Part shown: one piece after another, positions 9,349 through 17,411 of the stretch
Numbering within the stretch: the first letter of the stretch is position 1
Layout of the letters: every line of letters begins with the position of its first letter
Assembly (NCBI RefSeq): GCF_016862795.1
Contig: NZ_BONQ01000112.1
Location: forward strand, 1 to 49,766
From: Dactylosporangium siamense
GTDB lineage: Bacteria > Actinomycetota > Actinomycetes > Mycobacteriales > Micromonosporaceae
Reading direction: 5' to 3'
Length of the DNA stretch: 49,766 nt
Position numbers and translations under genes: made by a program
The notes under the pieces: generated by a model
Databases searched by the model: none
The model's input: the letters and a program-made list of their open reading frames with translations, nothing else
Told to the model about the DNA's origin: nothing

Positions 9349-9738
9349 GTGAATGAACGGCAGCCGCGGCGGGCGTGGGGTTCCCTCGAGTCGGACATCA
9401 TGGCGTTGCTGTGGGCGGCGACTGAGCCGCTGACACCCGGGCAGGTGCAGACCGCGCTGGCGGAGCGCCACGGCGGTGACCGCACGGTCCTGGCGTACAA
9501 CACGGTGCTGACGATCCTGACCCGGATGCACGACAAGGGCCTGCTGCAGCGGCAGCCGTCCGGTCGCGCGCACGCCTACCGGCCGACCCACGACGCCGCG
9601 ACGGCGGCCGCCACGCAGATGCGGGCGGTGCTCGACGGGCCGGGGGACCGGCGGGCGGTGCTGCGGCATTTCGCCGACCGGCTGGACGCCTCCGACGTGG
9701 AGGTCCTGCGAGCGCTGCTGGAACGCACCGACGGGTGA
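9349..9738 (+). CDS. BlaI/MecI/CopY-family transcriptional repressor
   Basis: A 129-residue BlaI-type repressor starting at GTG 9349 (NERQPRRAWGSLESDIMALLW). The helix-turn-helix is LTPGQVQTALAERHGGDRTVLAYNTVLTILTRMHDKG and the wing is LLQRQPSGRAHAYRPTHDA; the dimerisation tail ends VEVLRALLERTDG. No M56/M48 sensor protease gene is adjacent. It stands 68 bp upstream of the flavoprotein/kinase/antiporter gene run, with an inverted repeat (9769-9790) between, so it may be that run's repressor; this is inference from position. Confidence 0.88.
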   Translation: MNERQPRRAWGSLESDIMALLWAATEPLTPGQVQTALAERHGGDRTVLAYNTVLTILTRMHDKGLLQRQPSGRAHAYRPTHDAATAAATQMRAVLDGPGDRRAVLRHFADRLDASDVEVLRALLERTDG

Positions 9739-9768: not shown

Positions 9769-9790
9769 GTGTGCTACCTCTATGGCACAC
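9769..9790. promoter_or_regulatory. Inverted repeat upstream of the flavoprotein operon
   Basis: GTGTGC, 10-nt spacer, GCACAC: perfect 6-bp arms. It ends 5 nt before the GGGGG ribosome-binding site of the flavoprotein gene. The position suits an operator for the downstream operon, perhaps bound by the BlaI-type repressor encoded just upstream. A hairpin in the leader RNA is the alternative. Confidence 0.5.
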
Positions 9791-9806
9791 AAATCGGGGG
9801 ATTGAA

Positions 9807-11318
9807 ATGGATGCTGGCGATCTCACGCCGGAACTGCTGGGCGCGGCCGTCTGGGACGACGCGATGGTGGCCGCGGCCGGGATCCCGGTGCACGATGTGC
9901 CGTTCGTGACCGTCGGCGGCGGGATGGGCTCGTTCGTGACCGCCGACTACCTGCGCATCGCGGGTGTCCCGGCGTCCGACATCCGGGTGCTGTCCAACAT
10001 CGATCACCCCTGGCAGACGTACCAGTACCTGACCCGCGTCTCGCAGATCCCGGAGCCCGAGCGGATCCGGTCGGACTCATCGTCGCGGCCGGACAACATC
10101 TGGGGCTTCCCGTCCTACGCGCTGAGCGAGGCGTGGCGGGACCGGACGCTGCGGCCGCTGGTGCACATCCTCGGTGAGCCCATCTTCGCCGACTACTGGA
10201 CCCCGCAGGCGGGCACGGTCTTCGCGAGCCTGCGCCGGGAGTCCGCGCGCATCGGCTACGACGCGATGCTCGTCAAGGGCGTGGTGCGGATGGTGCGCCG
10301 GCGCGCCGCGGGCGGCTACTTCACCGTCCTGACCCCGCCGGCGGGCTCCAGTGCCACGAAGCGGGTGGTGTACCGGTCGCGCTTCGTCCACCTCGCCGTC
10401 GGCTACCCGGGCCTGCGGTTCCTGCCCGACCTGCAGGAGTTCCGGACCCGGCACAGCGACTACGAACACGTGGTCAACGCCTACGAGCCGCACGAGCACG
10501 TCTACGAGTTCCTCAAGACCAAACCCGGCACGGTGCTGATCCGCGGCGGCGGGATCGTCTCGTCGCGGGTCCTGCAACGCCTGATCGACGACCGGGAGCG
10601 GCTCGGGCTGCAGACGCAGATCGTGCACGTGTTCCGCACGTTCGTCACCGGCGCGCACGGGCCGCACTGGTGGGCCCGGCGCAAGGGCGGCGACGGGTTC
10701 GCCTACCAGGGCTTCAACTACCCGAAGTCGGTCTGGGGAGGGCAGCTCAAGGCACGCATGCGCCGCCTGGAAGGGCAGGAGCGGGCCAAGCAGTACGCCG
10801 AGATGGGCGGCACCAACACCCCGAAGCGGCGGCGCTGGCAGAAGCAGCTGCGCCAGGGCCGGCAGGGCGGCTGGTACCGCGCGATGCAGGGCGTCGCCCA
10901 GAAGGTCTGGCCCGACACCGACGGCACGCTGGTCAGCCTCATCAACGGCGACAACGGCACCGTCGAGGTCCGCGCCGACTACATCATCGACTGCACCGGG
11001 CTGGAGGCCGACATCGCCGAGCACCGCGTCCTGGCCGACCTGCTGGAGCACGGCGGGGCGGGCCGCAACCCGCTGGGCCGCCTCGAGGTCGAACGGCACT
11101 TCGAGGTCAAGGGCACCGCCAGCGGCGACGGGGCGCTGTACGCGTCCGGGGCGACCACGCTCGGCGGCTACTTCCCCGGCGTCGACACGTTCCTCGGCCT
11201 GCAGATCGCCGCCCAGGAGATCACCGACGACCTGGCCAGGCGCGGCTTCGGCCGCAGGATCGGCCCGATCCGGTCCACGACGCAGTGGGTCCGCTGGGCG
11301 CTCGGCCGTCCGGTCTAG
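9807..11318 (+). CDS. Two-Rossmann FAD/NAD(P)-binding oxidoreductase-like protein
   Basis: A 503-residue soluble protein with a dinucleotide-binding signature near the N-terminus (VPFVTVGGGMGSF, residues 31-43) and a second in the middle (GTVLIRGGGIVSSRVLQRL, 241-259). This is the arrangement of two-dinucleotide flavoproteins. Late motifs YIIDCTGLEAD and ALYASGATTLGGYFPG match the FAD-closing strands of such enzymes. No redox-active CxxC is visible. Between the Rossmann motifs and the C-terminus lies an unusual basic, Trp/Arg-rich insert (WWARRKGGDG, PKRRRWQKQLRQGRQGG). The start at 9807 follows CGGGGG. It leads a co-directional run with a 4-TM protein, an FHA protein, kinases and an antiporter, which suggests a redox-sensing or signalling job. 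The substrate is unknown. Confidence 0.7.
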   Translation: MDAGDLTPELLGAAVWDDAMVAAAGIPVHDVPFVTVGGGMGSFVTADYLRIAGVPASDIRVLSNIDHPWQTYQYLTRVSQIPEPERIRSDSSSRPDNIWGFPSYALSEAWRDRTLRPLVHILGEPIFADYWTPQAGTVFASLRRESARIGYDAMLVKGVVRMVRRRAAGGYFTVLTPPAGSSATKRVVYRSRFVHLAVGYPGLRFLPDLQEFRTRHSDYEHVVNAYEPHEHVYEFLKTKPGTVLIRGGGIVSSRVLQRLIDDRERLGLQTQIVHVFRTFVTGAHGPHWWARRKGGDGFAYQGFNYPKSVWGGQLKARMRRLEGQERAKQYAEMGGTNTPKRRRWQKQLRQGRQGGWYRAMQGVAQKVWPDTDGTLVSLINGDNGTVEVRADYIIDCTGLEADIAEHRVLADLLEHGGAGRNPLGRLEVERHFEVKGTASGDGALYASGATTLGGYFPGVDTFLGLQIAAQEITDDLARRGFGRRIGPIRSTTQWVRWALGRPV

Positions 11319-11339
11319 GTCTCGGAAAGGAGACAGACG

Positions 11340-11777
11340 ATGGTGCCCGTGTTGCTGGGTCGCATCCAGACCCGGATATTCCTGCTCGCCGTGGTCGGGT
11401 CGGTGATCACCGCCCTGATCACTCCCGTGCTGCCGGGCGGCGGACCGCTCGCCGACCGGTACCGGACCGCGTTCGTCGTGCTCGGCGCCGTCGCCGTCCT
11501 CGGCGTCGCCTGGGAGCTGCTGTATCACCTGCTCATGCAGTTCCGCTGGGAGAAGGACTGGCCGTCGCTGTTCGGACTGCTCACCGGCGTGCCCGAGGCG
11601 GTCGTGCTGTGGCTGCTGCTGCGCGCCGGGGCGGTGCCGGGGGTCGAGACCGCCCCGCCGGTGGCGGCGTTCGTGCTGCAGTTCGCCGCCGTGTGGACGG
11701 CGGTCTGGCTGGCGGCGAACGGCCCGATGCGGGTGCCGTTCCTGCGCTGGCGGTTCCGGGGCGGACGGCTGACATGA
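11340..11777 (+). CDS. Small four-TM membrane protein of unknown function
   Basis: A 145-residue protein with four likely membrane helices at about 12-31, 43-66, 76-97 and 106-126 and a basic C-terminal tail (RWRFRGGRLT). I do not recognise a named family. The ATG follows a GGAAAGGAGA ribosome-binding site 21 bp after the flavoprotein stop, and its stop overlaps the start of the FHA gene by 4 bp (ATGA). Its position makes it the likely membrane partner of the flavoprotein and FHA protein. Confidence 0.75.
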   Translation: MVPVLLGRIQTRIFLLAVVGSVITALITPVLPGGGPLADRYRTAFVVLGAVAVLGVAWELLYHLLMQFRWEKDWPSLFGLLTGVPEAVVLWLLLRAGAVPGVETAPPVAAFVLQFAAVWTAVWLAANGPMRVPFLRWRFRGGRLT

Positions 11778-12778
11778 GCGAACCCGTCGTGCAACCCCTG
11801 CCGGGCGCCGGTCTCGTCATGCGGGCCGGCCGGCTGTTCGCGGTGTGCGAACCGGCCGGGTCGGAGGAACTGCTGGCGCTCGTCGCGCGGGTCGCCGCGG
11901 ACGGCGGCGACGGCGAGGAACTGACCCGGCACGCGGCCGCGCTGCTGCCCGCCGGCGAGCTCAGCTGCGCCGTCGGTGGCCCGGCGGCCGGCGGCGGCGT
12001 CGCGGTGTTCGTCTGCGGGCACGGCGCCGCCGAGGTGGACGGCCGGGTCCGGATGTCCGGCCCGGAGCCGGTGCGGCACGTCGTCGCCGGACCCGTCGGC
12101 ACGCTGCGGCTGGCGCTGCCCGGTGCCGGGACACCGCACCCCCTGGCCAGCCTCGACGCCGGGGTCGTCGGCGCCGCCGGGCTGACCATCCGCTTCTCCA
12201 GGCCCCCGCAAACCCAAGCGCCGAAACCGGCGGCGTTCCAGTCGGTCCTGCTGCTGCCCGGGCACGCGCCGGCACCGCCGCCCGACGCGGCGGCCGCCGC
12301 CACCCAGCCGCTGGTCGAGGGCGTGGACTGCAAGAACGGGCACTTCAACGACCCGGCGGTGCGGTTCTGCCAGCTGTGTGGCATCGCCATGCTGCAGGTG
12401 ACGCACGTGACCCGGCTCGGGCCGCGGCCACCGCTGGGGATCCTGCTGCTCGACAACGGCATGACACTGCGCGCCGACGCCGACTACGTGGTCGGGCGGG
12501 AGCCGGAGCGCGACGCCGACGTCGCCGCCGGGCAGGCCCGGCCGCTGCGCATCGCCGACTCGCACGGCGGCATCTCCCGGCGGCACCTGCGGATCCGGCT
12601 GACCGGCTGGCACGTCCAGGTGCTGGATCTCGGCTCGGCCAACGGCACCTTCGTGCAGGAGCCGGGCGCGCCGGAGGCCACACCGGTCCCGCCGGCGCAG
12701 CCGGTGCCGATCCGACCCGGCGCCAAAGTCATTTTCGGCCGCCGCTGGCTGCGGTACGAGTCGCACCGCAACCCGTGA
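11774..12778 (+). CDS. Zinc-ribbon and FHA-domain protein
   Basis: A 334-residue protein in three parts. Residues 1-150 form an unrecognised mixed domain. A Pro/Ala-rich linker leads to a small metal-binding motif CKNGHFNDPAVRFCQLCG (Cys186, His190, Cys199, Cys202). The C-terminal FHA domain carries GRE (241-243), SRRHLRI (268-274) and GSANGTFV (287-294), the residues that bind phosphothreonine. FHA domains recognise targets of Ser/Thr kinases, and a kinase gene follows directly. The start ATG overlaps the previous stop by 4 bp. It probably reads out or scaffolds the phosphorylation carried out by the downstream kinase. Confidence 0.88.
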   Translation: MSEPVVQPLPGAGLVMRAGRLFAVCEPAGSEELLALVARVAADGGDGEELTRHAAALLPAGELSCAVGGPAAGGGVAVFVCGHGAAEVDGRVRMSGPEPVRHVVAGPVGTLRLALPGAGTPHPLASLDAGVVGAAGLTIRFSRPPQTQAPKPAAFQSVLLLPGHAPAPPPDAAAAATQPLVEGVDCKNGHFNDPAVRFCQLCGIAMLQVTHVTRLGPRPPLGILLLDNGMTLRADADYVVGREPERDADVAAGQARPLRIADSHGGISRRHLRIRLTGWHVQVLDLGSANGTFVQEPGAPEATPVPPAQPVPIRPGAKVIFGRRWLRYESHRNP

Positions 12779-12795
12779 CCACAGAAGGGACCGGC

Positions 12796-13584
12796 GTGCA
12801 GGGTATCGCCGACTACGAATTCGTCAGGCCGCTCGGCTCGGGCAACCACGGGCAGTACTTCCTGGCCCGCCGCCCGCCCCGGCTGCCGGTCGACGTCGAG
12901 CACGTGGCCGTCAAGGTGCTGTCCGCCGAGTCGACCGAGGTCGCGTTCCGCCGGGCCGTGCGGGAGCTGACCGCGTTCAGCGCCGTGCAGTCGCCGTACC
13001 TGGTGTCCCCGTACGACGCGGGCCAGCAGGACGGCAAATTCTTCTACTCGATGGAGTACCTGCCGGCCGGGTCCCTGGCCAACCCGGCGACCCCGCCGAA
13101 ACCCGCCGATGCGATCCGCGCCGTCGCCGACGCGGCCCGCGCCGCGGCGGCCCTGCACGAGGCGGGCCTCGTCCACCGCGACATCAAACCCGGCAACGTC
13201 CTGCTGAGCTCGGCGGGCGGCAGGCTGTCGGATCTCGGACTGGCGCAGGTGTTCACCGAGGGCGTCACGATCACCGGGATGGGCGCGCTCGACTCGGTGG
13301 AGTACGTCGACCCGGCGGTGCTGACGGGCGGCCGGTTCGTCCCCGCCGCCGACGTGTGGTCCCTCGGCGTCATGCTGCACCGGGTGGTGAGCGGCACCGG
13401 CGTGCACGGCGACCTGCCCGCCGCCGACGGGCTGCTGGCCCTGCGCCGGGTGCTGTCGGAGGCACCGCGGATCGACCCGTCGCTGCCGGCTCCCGTCGCG
13501 GACCTCGTCGGTGACTGCCTCGGCCCCGCCGGGCAGCGCCCCACCGCGGCAACCTTCGCGGCCCGCGCCGACGCCTTCGTATGA
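12796..13584 (+). CDS. Soluble Ser/Thr protein kinase
   Basis: A 262-residue Hanks-type kinase domain with no membrane segment. Visible are the glycine loop LGSGNHGQYFLA, Lys40 in VAVKVL, a helix-C Glu at 57, the catalytic loop HRDIKPGNVLL (127-137), DLG in place of DFG (146-148) and the P+1 region VEYVDPA. GTG at 12796 is chosen because AGAAGGGA lies 6 nt upstream. An alternative GTG at 12775 would overlap the FHA stop as GTGA. It is probably part of the operon with the flavoprotein, 4-TM and FHA genes, and the FHA protein is its likely phospho-partner. Confidence 0.88.
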   Translation: MQGIADYEFVRPLGSGNHGQYFLARRPPRLPVDVEHVAVKVLSAESTEVAFRRAVRELTAFSAVQSPYLVSPYDAGQQDGKFFYSMEYLPAGSLANPATPPKPADAIRAVADAARAAAALHEAGLVHRDIKPGNVLLSSAGGRLSDLGLAQVFTEGVTITGMGALDSVEYVDPAVLTGGRFVPAADVWSLGVMLHRVVSGTGVHGDLPAADGLLALRRVLSEAPRIDPSLPAPVADLVGDCLGPAGQRPTAATFAARADAFV

Positions 13585-13633
13585 GCACGGCCGTGAGCGC
13601 GGCCATGTGCGCACCAGACAACCGGGGGTCGGC

Positions 13634-15586
13634 ATGACGGCACATCAGCTCGGTCAGCTCCTGCTCGCGCTCGCGGGTGTCATCACGCTCGCGCGGCTGC
13701 TCGGCGCGGCGGCCCGCAGGCTCGGCCAGCCGCCGGTCATCGGCGAGATCCTGGCCGGGGTGCTGGTCGGGCCGACCCTGTTCGGCACACTGATCAGCGA
13801 CCGGCTGTTCCCCGTCGACATCCGCACCGCCCTCGCCGGGCTCGCCAACGTCGGCCTGGTCCTGTTCATGTTCATCGTCGGCTACGACCTGGACTTCGAC
13901 TCGGTGAAGGGGCGGCGCAAGGCGGCGGTCTCCGTCTCGATCGGCTCGGTGCTGCTGCCCCTCGGGCTCGGCGTCCTGCTGGCGCTGTGGCTCGCCCGCC
14001 ACCACGACGTGGCGGACGTGGCGCCGTTCGCGTTGTTCATCGGCGCGGCGATGTCGGTGACCGCGTTCCCGGTCCTGGCCCGCATCCTCACCGACCGGGG
14101 CATGCTGCGGACCGAGGTCGGCGGGCTCGCGCTGGCCAGCGGAGCCGTCGACGACGTCATCGCCTGGACGCTGCTCGCCGGGGTCGTCGCGATCGGCGCC
14201 GGCGGCGGTGACGTGCCGTGGCAGACGCTGCTCGCCGTGCCGTACGCACTCGTCATGTTCCTGCTCGTCCGGCCGCAGCTGCGGCGGCTCGTCGAGGCCC
14301 GGACGCGGGCCGGGCGGCTCACCCCCGGCATCCTCGCGGTCATGCTGGTCGGGCTGCTGCTGTCGTGCTGGTGCACCGAGGCGATCGGCGTCCACGCCAT
14401 CTTCGGCGCGTTCGTGTTCGGCGCGATCATGCCACGCGCCGGCGGCGAGCTGCTGCGGCACGAGACCCTGGAACGGCTCGAACAGGTCAGTGTCCTGCTC
14501 CTGCTGCCGGTCTTCTTCGTCATCGCCGGTCTCCGCGTCGATCTGTCCACGTTGGACAGCACGGGGTTGCTCGACCTCGCCCTGATCCTGGTCGTCGCGA
14601 TCACCGGGAAGTTCGCCGGCGCGTATCTCGGCGCCCGGCTCAACCGCATCCCGGCGCGCCGGGCGGGGGCCCTCGCGGCGCTGATGAACACCCGGGGGCT
14701 CACCGAGATCGTCATCCTCACCGTCGGGGTCCAGCTGGGCATCCTCGACGACACGCTGTTCTCGCTGATGGTCGTGATGGCGCTCGTCACCACCGTGATG
14801 GCCGGGCCGCTGCTGTCCCTCATCTACCCCAAGTCCCTCGTGGCACGGGACATCGCGGAGCTGGAACGGGCGGCGCTGGGCGTGCCGGACGCCTACCGGG
14901 TGCTGGCCGTCGTCCCGGCCGGGGCGTCGGCGCGGCCGATGGTGGACCTGGCGACCGCGGTGGCGGCGCGGCACGACCCGGCCGAGGTGGTGCTGAGCCG
15001 CATCGTGCCGTTTCCGGCGGCCCGCGTCGAGGTCGGCGCCGGGCTCTCCGGCGACCTGCTGGCGATGACGGCGGCGATGAAAGAACTCGCCGACCTCGCC
15101 GAGCCCGTCCGGCGGCAGGGGCCGTCGGCGGCGGTGTTCGCCCGGTTCAGCGCCGACCCGGCCGCCGACATCCTGGCCCAGGCCGACACGACCCGCGCCG
15201 ACGTCGTCTTCGTCGCGGCCGGACAGGAGGGCCTCGCGGCGCTGCGCGCGAGTCTGGTGACCGTGCTCGCGCCGCCACCCGACGGCTGGGACACCGTGCT
15301 GGTCAGGGCGGACGGCGACGACGGCGAGGCGGTCCTGCGCCTCGGCGCCGCCATCGCCGCCACCCAGGGCGCCGAACTGATCGTCGACGCCGGGGCACGC
15401 CCGGGCCGGCGCCTCGCCGCCGCTGTGCGCGAACTCGGCGGCACCGTCCTCGGCCCGGCCGTCCCGCCGGCGGCCCTGGTCATCGGCACCGTCGCGGCGG
15501 CGGACGCGCACCTCGTCGTCCGGGCCGCCCATCCGGCGGTGCGGGACGACCGGGACGCGCGGGTACCGACAACCACGCCCGCATGA
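13634..15586 (+). CDS. CPA2-family cation/proton antiporter with C-terminal USP-like region
   Basis: A 650-residue protein. About residues 1-410 form the 12-13 helix Na+/H+ (or K+/H+) exchanger domain: PPVIGEILAGVLVGPTLFG, GLVLFMFIVGYDLD, MSVTAFPVLARIL and the ion-site pair Asp173-Asp174 in GAVDDVIAW. ALMNTRGLTEIVIL is also typical of CPA2. Residues from about 430 form a soluble cytoplasmic region resembling universal-stress-protein folds (RVLAVVPAG..., DVVFVAAGQEGL), likely regulatory. The ATG follows GGGGG at 13624-13628, 49 bp after the kinase gene. Its position between two Ser/Thr kinase genes suggests that phosphorylation controls ion exchange (inference). Confidence 0.88.
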   Translation: MTAHQLGQLLLALAGVITLARLLGAAARRLGQPPVIGEILAGVLVGPTLFGTLISDRLFPVDIRTALAGLANVGLVLFMFIVGYDLDFDSVKGRRKAAVSVSIGSVLLPLGLGVLLALWLARHHDVADVAPFALFIGAAMSVTAFPVLARILTDRGMLRTEVGGLALASGAVDDVIAWTLLAGVVAIGAGGGDVPWQTLLAVPYALVMFLLVRPQLRRLVEARTRAGRLTPGILAVMLVGLLLSCWCTEAIGVHAIFGAFVFGAIMPRAGGELLRHETLERLEQVSVLLLLPVFFVIAGLRVDLSTLDSTGLLDLALILVVAITGKFAGAYLGARLNRIPARRAGALAALMNTRGLTEIVILTVGVQLGILDDTLFSLMVVMALVTTVMAGPLLSLIYPKSLVARDIAELERAALGVPDAYRVLAVVPAGASARPMVDLATAVAARHDPAEVVLSRIVPFPAARVEVGAGLSGDLLAMTAAMKELADLAEPVRRQGPSAAVFARFSADPAADILAQADTTRADVVFVAAGQEGLAALRASLVTVLAPPPDGWDTVLVRADGDDGEAVLRLGAAIAATQGAELIVDAGARPGRRLAAAVRELGGTVLGPAVPPAALVIGTVAAADAHLVVRAAHPAVRDDRDARVPTTTPA

Positions 15587-15632
15587 TGCACAATCTTCCC
15601 GGCCGACAGATGCATACGGGGGGACGAAACCG

Positions 15633-17411
15633 ATGACGGGCAACGAGCTGCCAGGATCGCCGCTACGGCCCGGGGACCCGAGGCAGCTCGGCCGGTACAC
15701 CATGATCAGCCGGCTCGGCGAGGGCGGCATGGGCAGCGTCTACCTGGCGCAGACCCCGGACGGCGGGCTCGTCGCGGTCAAGGTGATCCGCGGCGACCTG
15801 GCCCACGACGACCAGTTCCGGCGCCGGTTCCGCAGCGAGGTCAACCGCGCCCGGCAGGTCCCGCCGTTCTGCACCGCCGAGGTCCTCGACGCCGACCCCG
15901 ATCACGAGCTGCCGTATCTGGTCGTCGAGTTCGTCGACGGGCCGAGCCTGTCGGACGTCGTGCGCCAGCGGGGCCCGTTGACGACGTCGAACCTGCACGG
16001 TCTCGCGATCGGCGTCGCGACCGCGCTCACCGCGATCCACGGCGCCGGGGTCATCCACCGTGACCTGAAGCCCAACAACGTCCTGCTCGCGGCCGGCAGC
16101 CCGAAGGTCATCGACTTCGGCATCGCCCATTCGCCGTCGGCGACGACCGGGCTCACCCGCACCGACCAGGTGGTCGGCACCGTCGCGTACATGGCACCGG
16201 AGCGGTTCGGCCCGGTCGACGGCCCGCCCGTCACCCCGGCGGTGGACATCTTCTCCTGGGGCGCCGTCATCGCCTACGCCGCCACCGGCCGCAACCCGTT
16301 CGGGTCGGACGCCGGGCCGATCATCGCCACCCGGATCCTGACCCAGCCGCCGGACCTGACCGGGCTGTCCGGGCTGCTGCGCGAGCTGGTCGAGCAGGCC
16401 CTGGCCAAGGACCCCGCGGACCGGCCGACCGCCCGCGGGCTGCTCGACCGGCTGCTGGTCGCCGGGCCTTCCCAGCCCAGCGCGGTGGCGGCCGCGTTCG
16501 CCCGCCAACCGGCCCTCCTGGTCGCCGCCGAGGAGGCCGTCCAGGCAACGGACCTGCAGACCTCCCCGTCGCTGGGCACCACGGACGGGCAACCACCCGC
16601 GGCGCCGCGCGACCCGGACGCGACGACGAGGTTCGTGGACGACGCGCAGTTCGCGGTGCCTGCGGCGGCGGCCCCGGCGGTCCCGGTGGCCGCATCAGGT
16701 GGCGGGCGGTGGGGACGGGCCGTCGTCGCGGTGGTGGCGGTCGCCGCGATCATCACGTCGCTCACCGTCGCCGGTCTCGTCTACGGCGTCATCCCGCTGC
16801 CGTCCCGCGGCGCACCGTCGGCGTCGCCCACCACCTCCGCGAGCCCGACCGCCCCAGGCTCGCCGGGCGCGAGCGGCAAGGTGTTCATCGCCGACCCGCT
16901 CACCGCCGTCGGTATGTGGCAGGCCCGCGACGACAAGGAGAACCGGGCGACCTGCCGGTTCGACAACGCGCTCGTGGTCACCAAACAGAGCGCCGGGCCC
17001 TACCGGTGCCCGGGCGTGCAGGACGAGCTGACCGACTTCAGCGTGACCGTCGACGTTCGGCTGCTGACCGCGGGCAGCTGCGCCGGGATCTGGTTGCGCT
17101 TCTCCACCACGGGCTACGTCCTGCGGGTCTGCGCCGACGGCGCCTCCCTGGCGACGCACGACGCTGCGACCATCACGCCGGTGCGCACGTTGCCGTCCGT
17201 CGGCCCGGTCGCGCTGAACACCGTGACCAGGATCGGCATCACGGCCCAGGGGACGAACGTGACGTTCACCCGCGACGGCCGGGACGCCGGGACCTGGAAC
17301 GAGGCACGGTTCCGGAGAGGCCGCGTCGTGCTCGGCATCCTCCAGGCCGACCAGACCAGCGAGCCGCCGCCGTTCGCCGTCTCGTTCGCCAACCTCGAGA
17401 TCCGCACCTGA
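15633..17411 (+). CDS. Receptor-type Ser/Thr protein kinase with an extracytoplasmic C-terminal domain
   Basis: A 592-residue protein. The cytoplasmic kinase domain (about 20-275) has glycine loop LGEGGMGSVYLA, Lys50, catalytic loop HRDLKPNNVLL (142-152), DFG (161-163), GTVAYMAPE (182-190) and DIFSWG. A Pro/Ala/Gln-rich juxtamembrane linker with possible phosphosites (DATTRF, about 329-334) precedes one membrane helix (362-385). A Ser/Pro/Thr stalk leads to an extracytoplasmic domain of about 175 residues rich in beta strands, with cysteines at 441, 459, 483 and 500, which could form two disulfides. It resembles concanavalin-like/laminin-G-type sandwich domains, so it may sense a carbohydrate (inference). 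It follows the antiporter gene by 46 bp. Confidence 0.9.
   Translation: MTGNELPGSPLRPGDPRQLGRYTMISRLGEGGMGSVYLAQTPDGGLVAVKVIRGDLAHDDQFRRRFRSEVNRARQVPPFCTAEVLDADPDHELPYLVVEFVDGPSLSDVVRQRGPLTTSNLHGLAIGVATALTAIHGAGVIHRDLKPNNVLLAAGSPKVIDFGIAHSPSATTGLTRTDQVVGTVAYMAPERFGPVDGPPVTPAVDIFSWGAVIAYAATGRNPFGSDAGPIIATRILTQPPDLTGLSGLLRELVEQALAKDPADRPTARGLLDRLLVAGPSQPSAVAAAFARQPALLVAAEEAVQATDLQTSPSLGTTDGQPPAAPRDPDATTRFVDDAQFAVPAAAAPAVPVAASGGGRWGRAVVAVVAVAAIITSLTVAGLVYGVIPLPSRGAPSASPTTSASPTAPGSPGASGKVFIADPLTAVGMWQARDDKENRATCRFDNALVVTKQSAGPYRCPGVQDELTDFSVTVDVRLLTAGSCAGIWLRFSTTGYVLRVCADGASLATHDAATITPVRTLPSVGPVALNTVTRIGITAQGTNVTFTRDGRDAGTWNEARFRRGRVVLGILQADQTSEPPPFAVSFANLEIRT

Follow-up and report, generated by a model that had tools for sequence, protein, structure and literature searches.

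A flavoprotein and membrane protein pair that recurs with a Ser/Thr kinase, an FHA protein and varying transporters in Actinomycetota

Described systems and the Dactylosporangium locus

Two of the systems closest to the locus dealt with here, six adjoining genes in a 49,766-nucleotide stretch of Dactylosporangium siamense (contig NZ_BONQ01000112.1, C112 in our numbering; "the window" always means this whole stretch), join a transporter to a flavoprotein or to a kinase. The flavoprotein KefF is described as being encoded in the same operon as the CPA2 exchanger KefC and as needed for full KefC activity (PMC10224563, PMC11150392). In Mycobacterium tuberculosis, the kinase PknF is reported to share an operon with the transporter Rv1747, which it modulates (PMC3908365), and the FHA domain of Rv1747 to bind the universal stress protein (USP) Rv2623 through phosphothreonine 237 (PMC5549992).

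In the window, the six genes lie on the + strand between 9807 and 17411, in the order FP-TM4-FHA-K1-ANT-K2 and with gaps of 21, -4, -4, 49 and 46 bp (negative values are overlaps). FP (9807..11318, 503 amino acids, aa) is a flavoprotein for which AlphaFold and Foldseek predict the fold of an N-hydroxylating monooxygenase. TM4 (11340..11777, 145 aa) is an integral membrane protein with about four transmembrane (TM) segments by hydropathy, and the FHA protein (11774..12778, 334 aa) consists of an N-terminal domain of unknown fold, a CxxxH...CxxC zinc ribbon and a C-terminal FHA domain. K1 (12775..13584, 269 aa) is a soluble Ser/Thr kinase of a distinct GNHG-loop family, ANT (13634..15586, 650 aa) a CPA2/NapA-type antiporter with a DD motif (D173 D174) and a cytoplasmic tail, and K2 (15633..17411, 592 aa) a receptor Ser/Thr kinase. 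An earlier reading of the letters alone (the sequence-only reading) had announced six co-directional genes with overlaps or gaps of at most 49 bp, including two Ser/Thr kinases, a cation/proton antiporter and a protein with a zinc ribbon and an FHA domain. Our gene calls gave the same arrangement, with overlaps of 4 bp, and Pfam recognized the kinase, antiporter and FHA domains. The module had been taken to start at 9769, which is where an upstream dyad begins; the FP gene starts with the ATG at 9807. The host genome is of high GC content and 12.7 Mb in size, and the closest FP relative (85% identity) comes from Dactylosporangium.

Like KefC-KefF and KefB-KefG, the locus has a CPA2 exchanger and a flavoprotein partner from the same operon (PMC10224563). 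However, KefF is a small flavin mononucleotide (FMN) quinone reductase, whereas FP has 503 aa and a predicted N-hydroxylase fold; KefC carries RCK/KTN domains, whereas no match to the RCK/TrkA family was found among 33 homologues of ANT at E<=0.01; and TM4, FHA and K1 are additional here. The likeness to PknF-Rv1747-Rv2623 is that of a Ser/Thr kinase in an operon with a transporter, the FHA domain there binding a USP phosphothreonine (PMC3908365, PMC5549992), but that system relies on an ABC exporter with built-in FHA domains, whereas the present locus encodes a secondary transporter, carries FHA on a protein of its own and includes a flavoenzyme pair. Compared with both precedents, the flavoprotein, the kinase, the FHA protein and the exchanger (which has a Usp tail in some relatives) are all separate proteins. 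FP shares its predicted fold and the order of its flavin adenine dinucleotide (FAD) and NAD(P) motifs with the class B N-hydroxylating monooxygenases (PvdA, SidA, DesB, KtzI), from which it differs by an identity of 11-16%, by the absence of a Lys_Orn_oxgnase Pfam match, by its 4-TM partner and by the signalling and transport genes around it. The FHA switches GarA and OdhI have the nearest solved FHA domains, and the phosphothreonine-site residues are intact here, but our protein adds a zinc ribbon and an N-terminal domain, and the letters ETT, which we take to be the GarA/OdhI-type motif, are found in only 3/66 FHA rows. The gene set had been claimed to be undescribed, and no description of it was found by title or abstract in word searches of the open-access literature. 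FP-TM4 is filed here as a new element, and the set otherwise as a variant of kinase/FHA- and flavoprotein-regulated transport.

Recurrence of the gene set

A scan of the genome collection with FP, which reaches close relatives only, gave 153 relatives. The top 80 were retained, and all the titles among the matches listed belonged to Actinomycetota. The related loci are the nearest FP relatives and are clumped by genus. Their genes were called by a custom script and not by a standard gene finder, and the locus counts come from per-gene profiles plus a six-frame scan. The only plasmid record with FP was actually an 11.85 Mb Nonomuraea record without annotation there. Counting the window, 68 loci extend 6.5 kb or more beyond FP; TM4 was found in all 68, FHA in 60, K1 and the antiporter in 37 each and K2 in nine. 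Overall, TM4 is present in 79/81 FP loci, the exceptions being L051, which ends 5 bp past FP, and L057, with 1.4 kb past FP.

As a less biased sample, an even draw of 396 genomes of the phylum was searched at thresholds of 1e-30 (FP), 1e-5 (TM4), 1e-50 (K1) and 1e-15 (FHA). FP and TM4 were found in exactly the same 12 genomes, which span nine family codes (log10 P about -22, or about -17 by genus, ignoring kinship), and at least four of these families (f1, f2, f16 and f44) also hold members that lack both genes. K1 was present in 10 genomes, all within these 12; FHA relatives were detected in 21 genomes, 10 of which belong to this group of 12. In the two FP genomes with neither K1 nor FHA matches, FP is located on short contigs (3.1 kb in G370 and 10.2 kb in G220). 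The co-occurrence is not only a matter of linkage, since genome G374 keeps FP at C1:49187 and TM4-K1-FHA at C1:3802479-3805464, i.e., 3.75 Mb apart, or about 0.8 Mb if this contig of 4.58 Mb is circular. The check proposed by the sequence-only reading, the neighbourhood of FP and FHA relatives in other genomes, therefore leaves the core standing: FP, TM4, FHA, K1 and the antiporter recur together across loci and genomes, and that FP, TM4, FHA, K1 and a transporter form a module is well supported.

The flavoprotein and its membrane partner

Alignments were built from 51/81 FP, 27/79 TM4, 38/66 FHA, 24/38 K1 and 33/38 antiporter rows. The mean column identity of FP is 63% (51 members), and its relatives are 49-85% identical in the aligned sets. 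The window FP had no match in Pfam (E<=0.1) or NCBIfam, and a search of the host genome up to E 5 showed no paralogue. It carries an FAD-type motif at 37-43, an NAD(P)-type motif at 246-253 and an ATG-like motif at 395-402, in which G37, G39, G41 and S42, R246, G247, G249, I250 and V251, and D395, T397, G398 and L399 are invariant in 28 diverse members; other invariant residues lie beyond the nucleotide motifs (e.g., E85, R86, R88, S89, D90, W99, K307 and W344). The AlphaFold model (mean pLDDT 84.1, pTM 0.83) gave 366 Foldseek matches in the PDB at E<=0.001, and the best 50 of these 366 were all amine N-hydroxylases. PvdA was matched at 1.6e-18 (TM 0.63/0.76, 15% identity), and DesB, SidA, KtzI, DfoA and putrescine and lysine hydroxylases were also among the matches listed. 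FP is thus predicted from the model to fold like an N-hydroxylating monooxygenase, with dinucleotide-binding domains for FAD and NAD(P). The loop 302-311 was poorly modelled, yet it holds the invariant F303, K307 and G311, and might be a mobile active-site lid.

At the level of sequence, no match to the Lys_Orn_oxgnase/N-hydroxylase family was found in 51 FP members at E<=1, nor in 10 members at E<=5, and at what we take to be the ATGY position of N-hydroxylases FP reads DCTGLEAD. Profile comparisons (without L164, which is the same gene as L163) gave a probability of 0.9% against one protein of the same genome labelled as SidA-like by eye, and of 89% (E 2e-6, profile positions 36-411) against eight class-B monooxygenase-like proteins of this genome. 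The controls (ten unrelated profiles, eight column shuffles and the reversed alignment) reached at most 2.1%, the match kept its length in 5/8 leave-one-out runs, and the structure model later agreed with it. Two of the eight proteins were looked up and match solved Baeyer-Villiger and flavin monooxygenases. A tryptophan halogenase was rejected: Pfam reported it in 8/51 members, but in the three rows with the place shown the match lay only around DxIDCTG (profile 158-220), and profile comparison with a group of three such proteins in the same genome gave 3.5%. The thioredoxin-reductase type (0.2%) was rejected as well, and no flavodoxin or NQO family match was found in FP. Because of its N-hydroxylating monooxygenase fold, FP may make a product rather than only sense redox conditions. 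The redox or cell-wall signal that the sequence-only reading had FP and the receptor kinase sense, its relay by phosphorylation and an effect on cytoplasmic pH, Na+ or K+ are hypothetical.

TM4 had no match in Pfam (E<=0.1) and none above the cut-off of any NCBIfam family. A simple hydropathy scan indicated about four hydrophobic stretches, the count varying from 3 to 8 between homologues, and the relatives are 47-85% identical in the aligned sets. The residues W58, E59, Y62, H63, Q67, R69, W70, K72, D73, W74 and P75 are kept in at least 26/27 rows.

The kinases and the FHA protein

The K1 of the window has all the catalytic residues (Lys, Glu, the HRD Asp and the DxG Asp), and the HRD Asp is kept in 34/37 homologues, with other letters in L035, L044 and L048 (L013 was left out of the K1 profile, its best match being K2). 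The Gordonia-type K1 (L044, L048 and L133) has HAN for HRD and Ser for the catalytic-loop Asn and is kept beside the antiporter; it is predicted to be a pseudokinase.

K2 has one TM segment at about 364-382 and an ectodomain with four invariant Cys (441, 459, 483 and 500). It is AfsK-like, although far below the NCBIfam cut-off of the AfsK family. The receptor kinase had been counted as a member of the module, a claim that we have to drop: K2 was found only in Micromonosporaceae loci (9/68) and, to judge by this distribution, is a lineage-specific add-on.

The FHA domain was confirmed by Pfam, and the residues of its phosphothreonine site (R, S, R, H and N) are intact in 58-59 of 59 rows. The zinc ribbon is present in 59/66 rows, the other seven being truncated by the contig end or by a short gene call and not counted for the site residues. 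The 59 rows were picked by a pattern that requires the ribbon's first Cys and its His, so that the counts of these two residues are a matter of selection. An N-terminal degenerate PP2C phosphatase was rejected, as no similarity was detected (P 0.1%, with only two PP2C rows). Relatives of FHA without FP (L135 6867-9657; L136 6055-11853) adjoin what we take, from the sequence, to be PP2C-like phosphatase and WXG100-like genes, and the FHA family therefore appears to be wider than the module.

Sub-units and exchange of the transporter

The distance between FP and TM4 has a median of 16 bp and does not exceed 60 bp in 68/79 loci, and 29/61 loci show a TM4-FHA overlap of 1-4 bp. FP and TM4 are a near-constant pair, with K1 and the antiporter as the second unit. 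Both K1 and the antiporter occur in 36 loci, 34 of them with usable gene calls (two loci without a gene call were left out of gap and adjacency counts), and are direct neighbours in 31 of these, 16 times divergent and 15 times co-directional. In Rhizohabitans and Antrihabitans stalagmiti the K1-antiporter unit is absent from the FP locus and is found as a divergent pair tens of kb away on the same contig. In deep lineages, FP-TM4-K1-FHA form a single run (L131, L134 and L168, in the last of which each gene overlaps the next by 4 bp). The table of gene calls for K1 and the antiporter holds 37 loci with both, 29 with neither, five with the antiporter only and five with K1 only, and misses the K1 of L016 and L054, which the six-frame scan found.

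ANT matches PF00999 (2.4e-55) and, with a profile, NapA (2.3e-38) and KefC (1.2e-9). D173-D174 of the window align with the DD of NapA (4bwz); of this ion-site pair, the second Asp is kept in 32/33 homologues and the first in only 19/33. The tail had been called USP-like, which is weakly supported: Usp was matched in 8/33 homologues (best 1.2e-5), but not in the window copy.

The transporter within 7 kb of FP was classified in 87 loci, of which 11 are cut short, leaving 76 evaluable: 42 have a CPA2 antiporter, 10 an MFS, four a SulP, four a TauE carrier and 16 none of these. The genome of the window has only 10 PF00999 genes in 12.7 Mb, yet a CPA2 gene lies near FP in 42/76 loci. The antiporter, named as a member in the sequence-only reading, is thus the commonest transporter of the module, but is replaced by MFS, SulP or TauE carriers in some clades. 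On the FP tree, a single change accounts for the SulP labels and another for the TauE labels, and every MFS row falls within a supported set of 20; since two long branches are among the TauE rows, the way these rows join is uncertain. In three species of two genera FP is duplicated, the first copy accompanying the antiporter and the second falling in the MFS-type set (L016/L050, L019/L049 and L021/L053), and of these second copies only L053 has an MFS gene adjoining it.

The replacements have features of their own. The deepest FP lineages in the midpoint-rooted tree (L058, L071, L130 and L132) have a TauE/SafE exporter beside K1 instead of the antiporter. In Frankiaceae (L040, L043, L045 and L046), FP-TM4-FHA is followed by a DUF305 protein and a SulP permease. 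The MFS carriers in the antiporter's place (L041, L042, L053, L055, L060, L062, L066, L068, L070 and L073) have a conserved Met/His-rich N-terminal stretch, approximately M-H-Y-x(3)-G/D-M-x-M-D-x-P-M, which suggests metal binding.

A proposed switch and its alternatives

FP and TM4, two families without a name, share their genomes and are often accompanied by a kinase, an FHA-type reader of phosphothreonine and a transporter, a combination that suggests a so far undescribed switch between redox chemistry and membrane transport. Our preferred reading, to which we give a probability of about 0.4, is a conserved actinobacterial signalling module in which a membrane flavoenzyme, FP-TM4, would act on a phosphothreonine switch made up of K1 and FHA, and this switch would govern a transporter. 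FP, as an FAD/NAD(P)H enzyme, would bind TM4, act with it at the membrane and turn over NAD(P)H, and its activity or product would be the input read by K1. K1 would phosphorylate threonines within the module (in FHA, TM4 or the antiporter), and the FHA protein would bind such a phosphothreonine, the complex setting the activity of the transporter. The output in the window would be a NapA-type Na+(K+)/H+ antiporter, and K2 may add an extracellular input. The signal, the phosphorylation and the control of the transporter are what we infer; FP-TM4 is proposed as the input, K1 as the writer, FHA as the reader and the transporter as the output because of the KefC-KefF and PknF-Rv1747 precedents, of which like elements stand here on separate proteins. 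If this is true, flavin redox chemistry, Ser/Thr phosphorylation and ion homeostasis would be joined in one operon, orphan bacterial kinases and FHA proteins could be placed in a concrete circuit open to testing, and a fold known from siderophore N-hydroxylases would gain a regulatory use. The exchange of transporters among four unrelated superfamilies would then speak for a modular regulator and not for a part of one transport system. A further proposal, which we regard as doubtful, is that FP-TM4 is a new membrane-bound flavoenzyme of amine N-hydroxylase fold (with a membrane amine, e.g., an aminolipid, as substrate, or with NADPH/O2 turnover as signal) serving as a plug-in sensor that different lineages have wired to unrelated secondary transporters (CPA2, MFS, SulP or TauE), via the K1/FHA relay or directly.

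Several observations weigh against the switch. K1 (E<=1e-40) was not found in 12/16 FP genomes (Nocardia four, Actinomadura three, Nonomuraea three and Parafrankia two; in eight of these only the best 150 candidates were scored), so FP-TM4 seems able to work without K1 in some lineages, and the FP loci of these lineages are also without the antiporter. The catalytic Asp is lost in two Gordonia K1 and in the K1 of the Gordonia-like G298 (HAN for HRD). The type of transporter varies, and in 16/76 loci none of the four types is nearby. In a tree-aware test with seven independent pairs, the association between K1 and the antiporter did not reach significance (median p 0.125). No Thr is conserved in the antiporter tail, which has only three mixed S/T columns and so is not an obvious universal FHA ligand; a direct phosphothreonine site on this tail was rejected for this reason. 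FHA relatives occur without FP in 11/21 genomes, some at generic FHA scores only. Finally, one FP copy (L057) has no TM4 in the following 1.4 kb, the same assembly having a second FP with TM4 (L074). The first of these copies (L057 995-5230) is located between what are presumably a ClC chloride channel-like gene and a cytochrome oxidase subunit I-like gene.

FP might instead be a biosynthetic N-hydroxylase (or another class B monooxygenase) that makes with TM4 a modified amine or lipid, the transporter moving the product or counter-ions and the kinase and FHA protein regulating only expression or activity. The best 50 of the 366 Foldseek matches, mostly enzymes of siderophore pathways, are what this would lead us to expect, as are the many FP invariants outside the nucleotide motifs, which would suit an active site, and the presence of MFS, SulP and TauE, which are solute or anion carriers. 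However, the commonest transporter (42/76) is a cation/proton antiporter, the sequence signatures of N-hydroxylases were not found in FP, and no recurrent acyltransferase, synthetase or nonribosomal peptide synthetase (NRPS) family was seen beside FP among the neighbourhoods listed, which were inspected by eye with no model search. We consider a biosynthetic role rather unlikely.

It is unlikely, in our view, that FP-TM4 is a KefF-like redox or electrophile sensor, or a quinone reductase, bound directly to the transporter, with the kinase and FHA protein forming a phospho-signalling unit of their own that has only the locus in common with it. Among the 396 genomes, K1 (E<=1e-50) was in none that lack FP and TM4, and FP-TM4-K1-FHA lie in one run in deep lineages, both of which speak against this reading. 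On the other side stand the KefF-KefC precedent, three Nonomuraea loci in which FP-TM4-MFS has no adjoining FHA gene (K1 was looked for in three Nonomuraea genomes and found in none) and the FP-TM4-FHA of Nocardia, which adjoins a likely complex I operon in 10/10 loci. The genes could also be neighbours by chance or by descent, with unrelated functions; related genera do share gene order, many loci come from few families, and there is the FP copy without TM4 in L057. This we hold to be very improbable, given that FP and TM4 fall in the same 12/396 genomes of nine family codes while at least four of those families (f1, f2, f16 and f44) have members that lack both, that FP is unlinked in G374 and that K1 and the antiporter have been rearranged in order and strand.

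Upstream region and neighbouring genes

The dyad GTGTGC-N10-GCACAC pointed out by the sequence-only reading is real (9769..9790, with 0.02 occurrences expected in the window) and probably serves the FP operon as an operator or promoter element. An extended form of it occurs only once in the 12.7 Mb genome, also when three mismatches are allowed, and the dyad itself is kept upstream of FP in two Dactylosporangium loci, L009 and L079 (2/80 loci). A GTG at 9771, inside the dyad, is an alternative but less likely start of FP. No sigma-70-type consensus promoter was found at the dyad or before FP, the single sigma-70-like match being located before the BlaI gene. Of the terminator-like matches, a single one is on the + strand, where it falls within the antiporter gene, and the - strand has two, against a chance mean of 1.3. 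No known RNA element was found in the window at Rfam gathering scores, and a phage-defence system was rejected, PADLOC giving only kinase models for K1 and K2 and none for the other five proteins.

The BlaI gene that had been placed ahead of the set (9349-9738) is a real gene (Pfam Penicillinase_R 4.9e-22), but lies outside the module: a tblastn search at E<=1e-3 matched it to none of the 80 related loci, and it is therefore probably a bystander. A role as module regulator, in a BlaI/BlaR-type operon, was rejected on the same count.

Other neighbours recur in particular lineages. In the 10 Nocardia loci (L065, L069, L076, L077, L081-L084, L086 and L088), FP-TM4-FHA is divergent from what we take to be a complex I (nuo)-like operon and a small response regulator. 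The unlinked FP of G374 (L126 8173-17999) sits with a DM13 (electron transfer) protein and a CPA2 antiporter, and is also near what is presumably a pknB-pbpA-rodA-pstP-like locus. Both the Rhizohabitans K1-antiporter pair (L166 1-9664) and the FP module of G269 (L168 81-5957) adjoin genes that we take to be Pup-proteasome-like (Dop/ARC, PafA/PafBC).

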